In this document: positions 27,447-63,400 of the stretch, one piece after another
Numbering within the stretch: position 1 is the first letter of the stretch
Layout of the letters: each line of letters begins with the position of its first letter
Assembly (NCBI GenBank): GCA_034440615.1
Contig: JAOTOM010002905.1
Coordinates: 1 to 64,000 of the forward strand
Reading direction: 5' to 3'
DNA: 64,000 nt
Source of the DNA: Ashinkailepas kermadecensis
Lineage: Eukaryota > Arthropoda > Thecostraca > Neolepadidae
Notes under the pieces: model-generated
What the model saw: the letters and a program-made list of their open reading frames with translations, nothing else
What the model was told of the DNA's origin: nothing
Database searches by the model: none
Program-made: the position numbers and the translations under genes

Positions 27447-30400
27447 GTCTGCCAGTGTTCCGCTTTGTCGCACACCGGCGCCCCCTGCCCTCCGTCGGCC
27501 GTCCTGTTGATGGCTCCTCCGGCCTTCACCGATCGTACTGCTGACGGGACCATCTGCCGTGCACTGACTGTCCTGTCGAAGGGACCATCCGCTGTCTACT
27601 GACTGCCCTGTTGATGGACCATCCGCTGTCTTCTGACTGTCCTGTTGACGGGACCATCCGCTGTCCACTGACTATCCGGCTGATGGACCATCTGCTGTCC
27701 ACTGACTGTTTTGTTGACGGGACCATGTGCCATCCACTGATCATGTTGGGGGAGGGGGGGGGGACGATGATAACCCGTCTGACCCTGACTGTTTGGTGGC
27801 ACGGGTAATGTCAACCAATGTATAAATGTTCATCCCTGACTACAAATTGCATCCTTTTCTGTAGATAGGAGCAGTATGGGAAGTTTCTATGAGATTGCCC
27901 AATGCTGCCTTGTATTTTGAATCTCAGTGCGCCAAACTCAAGATTTGTTTCATCCTGCACTAACTCCGGGCAACGTTGTTTTTCATACGCACAATTAATG
28001 AAACAGTAATTTCAAGATACTGCTGTGAGTGCCACCAATACTTCGCACTTCAATCCACTTGTCATGGTAATAACGCCCCTTATTTGCTTGTTGAGCAGGA
28101 AAAACAATACCGGGCACTTGGCATTTGCTGCTGATAGTGAAGTTTGGTTTTGATACTAGCCGTCGGTTTTCACACGGACGATCGGTATTGGCAGTGACTA
28201 ATCAAAAATGTTAATGCCAACATGCAATGGCGGCTAGGACTGCCAGTGACGGTCGGTATTGACATTGCCGGTCGGTATTCAAATTGTCGGTCGGCATTGA
28301 TATTGACGTTCAGTATTCACATAGACATTCAGTAGTAATAGTGCCGGTCGATATTGCCGGTGCCGGTCGATATTGCCAGTGCCGGTCGGTATTGACGGTG
28401 CCGGCCAACATTGACGGTGCCGGCCAATATTGACGGTACCGGTCAGTATCGACAGTACCGACCAATATTGACGGTGCCGGTCGGTGTTGGTCGACAGATG
28501 GTCGGTATCGGCCTCAGGACGGTGTTCGAGCTGGTCAGGAGCAGTGCCGACTCGCATCCGGACATCTGTGTGCGCGCGCTGGACGCGCTGCTCCACATCC
28601 TGGAGGGCCAGCAGCCGGAGGCGCTGCAGCAGGAGGAGCCGCAGCTGATGGGTGCGTCTGGGGGGGGGGGCAGCCACGGCGTTAGCCGTAACCACTTGGC
28701 TACTGGTATAGCTACAGTATGGCTGTACCAGCAGCCGTTGTCTCGTGGTAGTTGTCCACAGCACTTGCCCATTGCGACAGTGAAAACCGTTATCAGGAGG
28801 TGAAAGAGATTCAGTTTGGTGTTGGTTTCCACTTTTAGTTTTATAGCTTTAGCACACTAATCCTGTCTTTGCATTGACAATGAATGGGCCTTGTCTAACG
28901 ACCGTAGTCTACGTACCATGCGGTTCAAATATATAACTAACGTGGACGTGGCTGGGGATGCGGAGTGGGTCTGGATCCCCCTAGTTTGGTACCCTGCTAA
29001 TGTTAATTTGTCATTTTCCCTATTCATTCTGGAAACGTGTGTTGGAAATAAGAACCTGGACCCCTGGCTTCGAGAGAGACCTCCAGCACTGGGTGTAGGG
29101 AAGCCAGTCTCTGTGTGTCGTGTGCTGATGCTGGTGATGTAGCCTGGACTGCATGTTGGTGTGTTGTCGCCGACCGTCCTGTGGTCGCCCCACTGATCGT
29201 TGTTCGACCGCCTTACGCTGACTTCCCGACCGTGCCCGACCATCAGAAGAACTGGCCGACCAGCTGCAGGCGCTCAGCTGTCGGCGGCACCAGCTGCAGC
29301 TGTCGGCCGCCGCCTGCAGCTGCCTGCTCAGTCTGGTGGTGGCCCGCGGCGAGACGGCCGGCATCCTACGCGCCGTCACGGCCGTCCTCACGGGTCACAC
29401 ACACCCGCGCAGTATACAGGTATGTAGACGTGCCATACAATACACCGGTACGCCGGTGGCCGCCACGTGCACCCACCACCTTTGGCTTCCGCATCCACAG
29501 TATGCTGATTGTGTCTTCCATATTCACACACTGTCCGTATGCAGAAATCACCCCAGCAACATACAGGCGTTTACTGCTCACACACATCCTGCGGTGACGA
29601 GTGGTCTAGGGGTAAGTTGCTTGTCTCACAATCGAAAGATCGTGGGTTCGAGTCTCACCTGTCGCTACTCTTCGCCCGCGACCAATCGGTGTGAGAGATT
29701 GACGACGCTGCATGACTCAACGGTCGACGTGTCGTAAAACCAATAACCACCACCACACACATCCTGCACCATGCAAATATATCGAAAATTGTACTTAGTA
29801 ATACCAAGTCGATGCCTTTATTATGCTGGGTTTCGACCTGTTCTCTCATTTTCAAGTTGCTTTGATTCACTGGGAGCGATTATCAATCGCATCAACTATG
29901 TTGGTTTCAGTCATAGTTCACCTTAACTTTAATACTTCGATGTCGCGAATTTCACCGTACTGGACTTAACCGTATTACGGTGGTGATTATTAATCGCTAA
30001 GTGTGCGGTGAAGCACACTTAGCGTGCTAAGTGGTACGATACGCCTGGTGTAGGTACGCCACGGGTAGGTACGCCACGCCTGACGTTTCTGTGGCCTGTG
30101 TGGGTGTGTATCTCCTGCTGTCCGTGGTGTGACAGGTGTATGTACGCCACGCCTGACGTGTCTGTGGCCTGTGTGGGTGTGTAGCCCCTGCTGTCCGTGG
30201 TGTGACAGGTGTATGTACGCCACGCCTGACGTGTCTGTGGCCTGTGTGGGTGTGTAGCCCCTGCTGTCCGTGGTGTGACAGGTGTATGTACGCCACGCCT
30301 GACTTGTCTGTGGCCTGTGTGGGTGTGTAGCCCCTGCTTTCCGTGGTGTGACAGGTGTATGTACGCCACGCCTGACACGTCAGTACGCCACGCCTGACGT

Positions 30401-60400: not shown

Positions 60401-63400
60401 CATTTCGTTACTATCTTCCGTGGCCACGGCAGTACCGTTTGATGCGCTGCCTACTGCCCCAAGAGGTCGGTTGGACCTCGCTGTACGTGGGTAACCCTGT
60501 ACTCGGCTGCCACAGGAGGGCGGTCGGTACGCTCTGCGGCTGCGGAACAGCGGCGGCCGCACCAGCAACGGAGACAGCGGCCAGAGCCGGGTGCGCGGCC
60601 CGGACGGCACCACCTTCAACTTCGCCACGTGTCCGCTGAGTCTGAACGGCACGAACCAGACGCGCGGCCAGCTGCCGCAGTTGCTGTACTACAGCCTGAC
60701 GCCGGGCCGGCCGGCCAGCGCCGCCGGCCAGCCCGACCAGCGCTCCCGTCGCGCCGCGCTCGGTCTGCTGCGGGCGCTGTGCCGGGCCGCCGCCGAGCTG
60801 GCGGCCGGCGCGCGCGGCGTCGGCACGGCCGCCGCCGTGCGGGCCGTGTCCGACAGCCTGCTCAACACCAGACTGCTGCCGACCGCTCTGTCGCACGTGG
60901 CTTCCATGGTGCCGGCCGACCCACGGGTAAGCTGTTCACACCTGGATACTGTGTACAGCGCGTGAGAGGTGGCGAGCGTCATCTTCTGGATGACATCAGC
61001 CTGATAGCGCGGAGGTGACAGGTGAACGTGATGTCTAACCCATGCGTTGGTGACGACTGACCTGTGCTGGTGGCACACAGCCTGTGCCGATGACAACTAA
61101 CTTGTACCGGTCGGCCTGGTGACATGTGACCTGGTGTGCTCGGCAGACGGCTGTGCAGGTGATGACCCTGATCCAGGAGCTGCTGCCGCACGTGGCGGCG
61201 CTCAACAACCTGTGGCTGGCGCTGCAGCAGCCGGCGCCTGACCCGGCAGACACGCCGCCCACTGTGTCGCTGCACTGCTGCTGGGTGGAGAGTCGACACC
61301 CGTACCCGCCGGCCGCCATCCGCCGGAAACGGTCAGTCCTTCGACAGCCGATGCGTGATGGCTGCATCGGACCCGCTACCTCGCGGCTGCTGCGTCCGAA
61401 AATATTGCGCCGTTGCCGTGCGAACTGCATATGGCCCAGCTGCGGTGTCGGTACGAGTGTGAAAGATGTGCTACATAATGCTCCGTAGTGTACCTAGGTC
61501 ACCAACTTGTGCGTTTTGTGTGTTGCGGTGTAGTCTAGATACCCGTTGGTCCACATGAGACGTCAGCTCAGCCGTACTGTAAGGTCCCGCCGAATTGCCA
61601 TGAGCGAGCCTGTCTTGTAACAGTATTGTAATGTTCGTGTGCTTTGGCTGATCGGCTCGCTGCGGACCGTGACCCATCGGTGAGGTCGACAAATTAGTGC
61701 TTATGTCCCTCGGTGGTCCAGCTGGCTGCGGACCGTGACACATCGATGAGGTCGACAGGGTGGTGTTTATGTCCCTCGATGGTCTAGCTGGTCGTGAAAC
61801 GTGTGTTATGTCTACAGAGCGGTGTTCCCGGCGTCGGTACTCTGGCTGAGTGTCGAGTTTGAGACTCACTGCTGTGTCTGCAGGGTGGTGTTCCCGGTGT
61901 CGGTACTCTGGATGAGTGAGTTTGACGTTCGCTGCTGTGTCTGCAGGGTGGTGTTCCCGGCGTCGGTACTCTGGATGAGTGTCGAGTTTGAGACTCGCTG
62001 CTGTGTCTGCAGGGTAGTGTTCCCGGCGTCGGTGCTCTGGATGAGTGTGAGTTTGAGACTCGCTGCTGTGTCTGCAGGGTGGTGTTCCCGGTGTCGGTAC
62101 CCTGGATGAGTGTCGAGTTTGAGACTCGCTGCTGTGTCTGCAGGGTGGTGTTCCCGGCGTCGGTACTCTGGATGAGCGTCGAGTTTGAGACTCGCTGCTG
62201 TGTCTGCAGGGTGGTGTTCCCGGCGTCGGTGCTCTGGATGAGTGTCGAGTTTGAGACTCGCTGCTGTGTCCGCAGGGTGGTGTTCCCGGTGTCGGTACTC
62301 TGGATGAGTGTCGAGTTTGAGACTCGCTGCTGTGTCCGCAGGGTGGTGTTCCCGACGTCGGTGCTCTGGATGAGTGTCGAGTTTGACGTTCGCTGCTGTA
62401 CGGCGCAGCCGGAGGACCGGCTGCTGGTGGGCCTTCCTGCTGAGGACGGCCACACCGTCACCGTGCTGACTCTGAGTGGTCAGCACGGCTGGCCGCGCTC
62501 GGCCGTCATCCTGCCAGGTGAGGCCGACACGGGACACCTGCGGTCAGCACGGCTGGTCATCACCCTGTCAGGTGAGGCCGACACCGGACACCTGCGGTCA
62601 GCACGGCTGGTCATCACCCTGTCAGGTGAGGCCGACACTGGACACCTGCGGTCAGCACGGCTGGTCATCACCCTGTCAGGTGAGGCCGACACTGGACACC
62701 TGCGGTCAGCACGGCTGGTCATCACCCTGTCAGGTGAGGCCGACACTGGACACCTGCGGTCAGCACGGCTGGTCATCATCCTGCCAGGTGAGGCTGACGC
62801 CGAGCACCTGTGGTCAGCACGGCTGGTCATCATCCTGTCAGGTGAGGCCGACACTGGACACCTGCGGTCAGCACGGCTGGTCATCACCCTGCCAGGTGAG
62901 GCCGACACTGGACACCTGCGGTCAGCACGGCTGGTCATTATCCTGCCAGGTGAGGCCGACACGGGACACCTGCGGTCAGCACGGCTGGTCATCACCCTGT
63001 CAGGTGAGGCCGACAATGGACACCTGCGGTCAGCACGGCTGGTCATCATCCTGCCAGGTTAGGCTGACACCGAGCACCTGTTTGGGAACTGTCACTTCAG
63101 GTCCGTCAGCGAGTGCCAGTGATGGTCCTGGCGAGATATAGCGGGGGAGACTGGTCATAGTTGTTTGTTTCTTCATTGCTTGGTATGATACGAAACAATC
63201 GTCCGGCTTGGAGTTTTGCAACCACTGATTTTCTTCTGGGATGCATGTGGTAGGTTGATGACACTGCATGACCTTATGGCCATTGCAGTTGAATGATGCA
63301 AATGAAGTGTCTATTTCGAGGAATGGTGAGACTTAACCTGAAACAAAAATATAGTTTCGTATTTGTGCATTCGCGCTGCCCTGGTATTTGTGTGTAACAG

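Follow-up and report, generated by a model that had tools for sequence, protein, structure and literature searches.

Why should tandem arrays in the introns of one gene repeatedly be built from the edge of the adjoining exon together with its splice site? The question is raised by MYCBP2, which encodes a PHR-type E3 ligase, in a 64,000-nucleotide stretch of the barnacle Ashinkailepas kermadecensis genome (GenBank assembly GCA_034440615.1, contig JAOTOM010002905.1, positions 1 to 64,000, forward strand; hereafter, the window). A preliminary description of the window listed arrays at no fewer than fifteen exon boundaries and regarded them as not explained by any known repeat family. Arrays of the same kind are in fact known from amphioxus as "mirages", together with a model of intron gain (available parts of PMC3087553 and PMC3902484). 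The analysis confirms that tandem copies of exon edges are real in the MYCBP2 introns, and they form a real, dense mirage-type set in an arthropod gene. They probably arose by local exon-edge duplication that was tolerated and later expanded.

Exons were located by spliced alignment of an approximate human MYCBP2 probe. The exon model proper was obtained by spliced alignment of protein P0065 from the thoracican barnacle Pollicipes pollicipes, the closest MYCBP2 protein found (80% identity to a one-exon query); the next matches to this query are decapods at 48% identity. The split 11th and 12th exons of the P0065 alignment were replaced by two human-guided exons, the start of exon 4 was shifted from 31,396 to 31,342 following the human-guided model, and the last exon was extended to 63,990. 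The joined 35 exons translate into 1895 amino acids without a stop, with the start of exon 11 and the ends of exons 3 and 10 being uncertain edges. Model numbering is used throughout, with D14 denoting the donor of exon 14 and A12 the acceptor of exon 12; exon numbers in the preliminary description appear to be higher by one.

The main test compared 50-base junction segments (20 exonic and 30 intronic bases) from 69 boundaries (34 donors and 35 acceptors) with the adjacent intron. Comparison of the same segments with non-adjacent introns (2146 comparisons) served as the null, the 99.5th percentile of which was taken as the threshold, with 0.56% of null comparisons at or above it. At 21 of the 69 boundaries, the adjacent intron contains copies of the junction; at 19, copies cross it, and both sides of introns are affected (10/34 donors and 9/35 acceptors). 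The signal is weak at four of these 21 boundaries: A7 lies at the threshold, D29 has a single 20-base copy, and the copies at A26 and A27 do not cross the junction. Thirty exonic bases alone recur at 12 of the 69 boundaries (7/34 donors and 5/35 acceptors). Among control windows of 50 bases, 6 of 206 from exon interiors recurred, versus 460 of 967 from intron interiors, a high rate that arises because arrays fill the introns. For 30-base exon-interior windows, the threshold was reached in 9 of the 34 exons having any, some of these windows being inner parts of the same arrays.

All fifteen boundaries named earlier pass this test, comprising nine donors (exons 15, 16, 19, 20, 22, 23, 25, 26, and 35 in the earlier numbering, here D14, D15, D18, D19, D21, D22, D24, D25, and D34) and six acceptors (5, 9, 13, 20, 31, and 35, here A4, A8, A12, A19, A30, and A34). 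Of three further acceptors described as weaker (2, 4, and 16), A1 and A3 pass, whereas A15 fails. That arrays start at the exon edge holds only loosely. Among the 72 rows returned for the window by Tandem Repeats Finder (TRF), arrays overlap the exon by 7 to 58 bases at 11 boundaries, a varied reach that implies no fixed break point; a gap of 8 to 68 bases separates the junction from the closest array at A1, A3, A7, A12, D19, and D22, where alignment revealed the copy of the junction. The quoted unit range of 33 to 96 base pairs (bp) requires correction, given that the smallest unit measures 25 bp (D24) and the 96 bp at A12 reflects a higher-order period built on a unit of ~32 bp.

The units are local. 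TRF consensus sequences of the 26 nonexonic arrays in the gene with a period of at least 20 were scored automatically against all 69 junctions. An array's best match was a junction of the intron that holds it in 19 of 26 cases, 17 of them with a score of at least 25, including two arrays that adjoin each other at one boundary (exon 12). The weak cases among the 19 are the array adjoining A15 (22 vs 21) and that of exon 20 (22 vs 17), and exon 1 is a near tie (26 vs 25). A foreign junction was matched at 25 or above by only 3/26 arrays in the gene and 1/10 arrays upstream of it. The predominance of own-intron matches and the scarcity of foreign ones indicate that the units are products of their own introns and do not constitute a dispersed family.

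Within arrays, copies differ on average by ~2 to 18% from the exon-adjacent unit, and likeness to the exon falls with distance at D14 (rho -0.68, p = 1e-4) and D18 (rho -0.57, p = 6e-5). One aligned copy each at A3 and A4 is the junction's own intron side, as judged from its perfect match and position; these were excluded from counts, and such copies also tilt the trend at these two boundaries. Arrays of two copies are followed, by eye, by a short repeat of the start of the unit (AGGTGG at D15; CATGAAGGT for CATCAAGGT at D21). A possible conversion of an exon-internal AG into a new acceptor at A19 and A34 is likewise a by-eye impression.

This anatomy is probably that of mirage-type minisatellites with the following history. 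A short local tandem duplication would cover the first or last bases of an exon, its splice site, and part of the intron. The duplication would be tolerated because the site next to the intact exon would go on working, leaving the duplicate to be spliced out as extra intron. Slippage or unequal exchange could then expand and reshuffle the duplicate, with the exon copy held by purifying selection and the intronic copies presumably neutral. Arrays would pile up at junctions if GC-rich exons and their edges were more prone to duplication and duplications inside exons were removed. The preliminary description had likewise proposed duplication or slippage at exon edges, which fits the data as does the anatomy it reported, but it overlooked base composition: guanine plus cytosine (GC) content is 68% in exons, 57.5% in intronic arrays, and 49.8% in array-free intron. 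Arrays with a period of at least 10, together with one TGTC microsatellite, occupy 11,201 of 29,806 intron bases (over one third), and upstream arrays occupy 1,452 of 27,000 bases, microsatellites being left out of the latter count.

Array placement was compared with chance using a list of 24 arrays compiled by hand (16 spanning a junction and 8 not), which includes the marginal A7 and omits A1 (period 19) and A8 (no TRF array). If duplications landed at random wherever they would be tolerated (entirely inside an intron, or over a single junction), chance would put 3.7 of the 24 arrays across a junction, versus the 16 counted. GC control raises the expectation without closing the gap, and this is the first of several observations that weigh against the explanation favored here. 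The expectation is 6.5 when placement is GC-weighted by the observed units (P = 3e-5) and 8.7 when only windows of at least 55% GC are allowed (P = 0.0016); with A7 removed (15 arrays), the respective values are P = 2e-4 and 0.006. The distance trend is significant in just two of nine arrays tested, with six leaning likewise and D24 in the opposite direction, and a distal free end alone would also yield distance polarity. Finally, synonymous changes at D14 number 28 of 51 against a neutral expectation of 0.32, where copies share changes by descent. If just 12 arrays are counted, P becomes 0.013 (GC-weighted) and 0.11 (at least 55% GC). The junction bias is therefore due partly, and perhaps not entirely, to GC; as the sole cause, GC is insufficient unless the count is cut to 12 arrays.

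The roughly 2-fold excess of junction arrays left after GC control would be expected if exon/intron junctions were true hot spots of tandem duplication, driven by a process linked to transcription, splicing, or recombination at the exon edge and adding to the effects of GC and selection. Words containing AGGT, which flank the unit at D15, D21, and D22 by eye, point in the same direction. We nevertheless regard such hot spots as unlikely, as units end at varied distances from the junction, with no fixed break point in the TRF reach, and the sample amounts to one gene with about 25 arrays. Dimer units also fold no clearly better than shuffled sequences, with mean z values of -0.25/-0.44 for 15 spanning arrays and 0.08/0.10 for 8 others, and a strongest single value of -2.2 at A12. 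DNA hairpins were rejected as a cause on the same grounds.

A different view holds that the copies work as splice sites and have been selected, whether as spares or because they allow alternative splicing and variable exons. Many copies score at least as high as the lowest-scoring true site in MYCBP2, among donors (D18, 42/42; D14, 23/26; D25, 9/9; D34, 9/9; D24, 5/5) and acceptors (A34, 8/8; A12, 15/25), although this site sets a lax bar. GT occupies the aligned place in 21/26 copies at D14, 40/43 at D18, 9/9 at D25, and 10/10 at D34, and, in the smaller arrays, in 3/5 at D24, 2/3 at D19, and 1/1 each at D15, D21, and D22. AG is found there in 8/8 copies at A34, 22/25 at A12, 1/1 at A19, and 1/1 at A8, but in 0/1 at A30 (an alignment gap), 0/5 at A4, and 0/4 at A3. 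Where column scores could be computed, the splice dinucleotide columns are no clearly better conserved than others, with values of 0.81/1.00 at D14 and 0.98/0.95 at D18, each versus 0.93. Among changes in the exonic parts of copies, the synonymous fraction gives no uniform signal, being 9/65 at D18, 8/34 at A34, 4/10 at D24, 0/12 at D34, and 1/30 at A12, for neutral expectations of 0.26, 0.26, 0.33, 0.39, and 0.30, respectively; shared descent makes these counts nonindependent, and five other arrays had at most two changes. At D18, 56 of the 65 changes are thus nonsynonymous, 4 of them creating stops. We see no clear sign that selection acts on these copies of the splice sites.

Part of the 66-bp array at exon 34 does share one open reading frame with the exon, as would suit a variable exon. 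Comparison of this frame with relatives gave one weak match covering 9% of the query, with the best 7996 candidates by shared words being scored. In P0001 (85% identical), from an ENA contig, the sequence continues beyond the donor of exon 24 with no residues resembling the array in the window, as judged by eye only. The preliminary description had also raised the arrays as a source of new introns or variable exons, a suggestion that finds no echo in the protein: it is collinear with that of Pollicipes at 14/16 introns bearing a boundary array and at 15/18 introns lacking one, in a model guided by the same protein. The two noncollinear array-bearing introns are 3 and 11, where P0065 seems to miss sequence. 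Overall, selection for function of the copies appears very improbable. Least credible of all is an artefact of assembly or of long reads. Assemblers do make mistakes in tandem arrays, and the copy numbers could be off, but no sign of an artefact was seen, and mean copy divergence of ~2 to 18% that rises with distance in the largest arrays, along with higher-order periods in some arrays, is hard to obtain from read errors or false joins.

Table 1. MYCBP2 and the arrays or copies at its exon boundaries (window coordinates; exon numbers follow the model)
Feature	Position	Strand	Remarks
MYCBP2 (PHR-type E3 ligase), N-terminal half	28498..63990	+	35 modeled exons; gene continues beyond window
Array 5' of exon 1, acceptor, 19/57 bp	28244..28489	+	Weak junction match: score 30; 26 vs 25 next best
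Array 5' of exon 3, 73 bp x 4.3	30050..30376	+	Acceptor copies, at most 4 exonic bases
Array reaching into exon 4, 56/113 bp	30973..31352	+	Acceptor copies; aligned dinucleotide GG instead of AG
Array 5' of exon 7, 42/126 bp	33891..34623	+	Marginal, unconfirmed: score 25 = threshold; own-junction match 17, not best
Exon 8 acceptor region, two diverged copies, one junction-crossing	35083..35212	+	Alignment; no TRF array
Acceptor array 5' of exon 12 (start 40404)	39102..40368	+	Base unit 32 bp, 25 junction-spanning copies
Donor array, exon 14 (end 41372)	41348..42371	+	38 bp = 25 exonic + 13 intronic, 26 copies
Array 5' of exon 15, 63 bp x 29	42588..44463	+	Own-acceptor match below calling strength, 22 vs 21
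Donor array, exon 15 (end 44685), 84 bp x 2.1	44660..44833	+	AGGTGG at start, again right after last full unit
Donor array, exon 18 (end 47223)	47189..49056	+	42 bp = 35 exonic + GTGAGTT, ~43 copies
Acceptor array, exon 19 (start 49232)	49127..49279	+	61 bp x 2.5
Donor array, exon 19 (end 49376)	49444..49704	+	56 bp x 4.7, begins 67 bp past exon
Donor array, exon 21 (end 51378)	51372..51488	+	54 bp x 2.2
Donor array, exon 22 (end 52597)	52625..52823	+	64 bp x 3.1
Donor array, exon 24 (end 54291)	54271..54458	+	25 bp x 7.5
Donor array, exon 25 (end 54804)	54779..55118	+	33 bp = 26 exonic + 7 intronic, ~10 copies
Acceptor array, exon 30 (start 59272)	59148..59318	+	79 bp = 32 intronic + 47 exonic
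Acceptor array, exon 34 (start 62342), 66 bp x 9	61809..62399	+	AG kept in 8/8 upstream copies
Donor array, exon 34 (end 62517), 54 bp x 10.5	62506..63070	+	GT kept in 10/10 intronic copies

Further repeats were noted in and around the gene. A 66-bp x 2.1 array (61655-61791) lies 18 bases 5' of the exon 34 acceptor array and has an equal period, while its own junctions are unmatched. Exon 32 contains a 22-bp x 2 repeat (60700-60743), and the intron after exon 15 holds a (TGTC) tetranucleotide microsatellite of ~70 copies (45350-45632). Upstream of MYCBP2, a cyclin A gene was identified on the + strand at 6977-12310 (Pfam Cyclin_N). Of eight boundaries tested in it, one, the acceptor of the fourth exon, has a junction copy, mostly from the intron side; the test is a weak one, as four of the boundary coordinates used are 1-2 bases off and the end of the last exon is just the end of homology. 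Directly 5' of this fourth exon, a 29-bp array (12067-12163) repeats the acceptor sequence, and exon-edge arrays may therefore not be limited to MYCBP2. Pfam returned no match in 15 other upstream stretches scanned. That region also contains CGGCTC hexamer repeats in three TRF stretches (17880-18684) and degenerate repeats at 20480-20568 of AACCT, the arthropod telomere motif.

In amphioxus, mirages are tandem repeats that span exon-intron boundaries in Adh, troponin C, globin, and PGBD5 genes, specifically Adh3, troponin C, the globins BflGb6 and BflGb9, and PGBD5 (available text of PMC3087553 and PMC3902484). The available part of the PGBD5 report shows like arrays in that gene and cites Adh and troponin C (PMC3902484). 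According to the accessible portion of PMC3087553, AG or GT is present in many, not all, copies, splicing is undisturbed, allele lengths vary, and mirages are proposed as a route to intron gain. In a potato gene, an intron was gained after a duplication crossing an intron-exon boundary (PMC4974935). For barnacles and other arthropods, no exon-edge arrays are reported in the titles and abstract openings of open-licence PMC papers among the matches listed. A word search of the main text of the Pollicipes genome paper (PMC8917513) yielded zero occurrences of "tandem" and "minisatellite", and neither word occurs in the available part of the Balanus improvisus paper (PMC8270832), which reports extreme nucleotide diversity in that barnacle.

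The dense set in MYCBP2 invites a broader and more tentative proposal, which we would not yet favor: barnacle genomes might undergo ongoing, genome-wide preferential duplication of exon edges and splice sites, independently of amphioxus mirages, in another extremely polymorphic marine group. Amphioxus is itself highly polymorphic, and a link between polymorphism and mirages is offered as a suggestion only. Were the proposal true, exon-edge duplication would keep introns growing and could provide material from which new introns or exons arise. Mirages are reported from few lancelet genes in the source text available, and an arthropod gene with 16 to 17 arrays suggests that they also occur outside cephalochordates. 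This number is sufficient to measure the birth, growth, and decay of arrays, and since models of intron gain by tandem duplication need duplicated splice sites, barnacles could make these models testable.

Among known systems, ordinary intronic minisatellites share GC-rich short units, diverged copies, and higher-order periods with the barnacle arrays, the difference being that the barnacle unit holds exon sequence and a splice site. Introner elements similarly place splice sites on repeated DNA, but they are dispersed related copies, whereas the barnacle units are mostly unrelated between introns within this gene. Intron gain by tandem duplication (the Rogers model; PMC3087553) has in common a boundary-crossing duplication with copied splice signals, yet the barnacle arrays lengthen existing introns. 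The closest likeness is to amphioxus mirages, where the repeat also spans the exon-intron boundary (here at 19/69 boundaries), donors and acceptors are both affected, and AG or GT is found in many but not all copies. The barnacle case differs in that the host is not a cephalochordate and in density: half of this one gene holds 16 to 17 arrays that match a junction, compared with one or two in each amphioxus gene according to the source text available.

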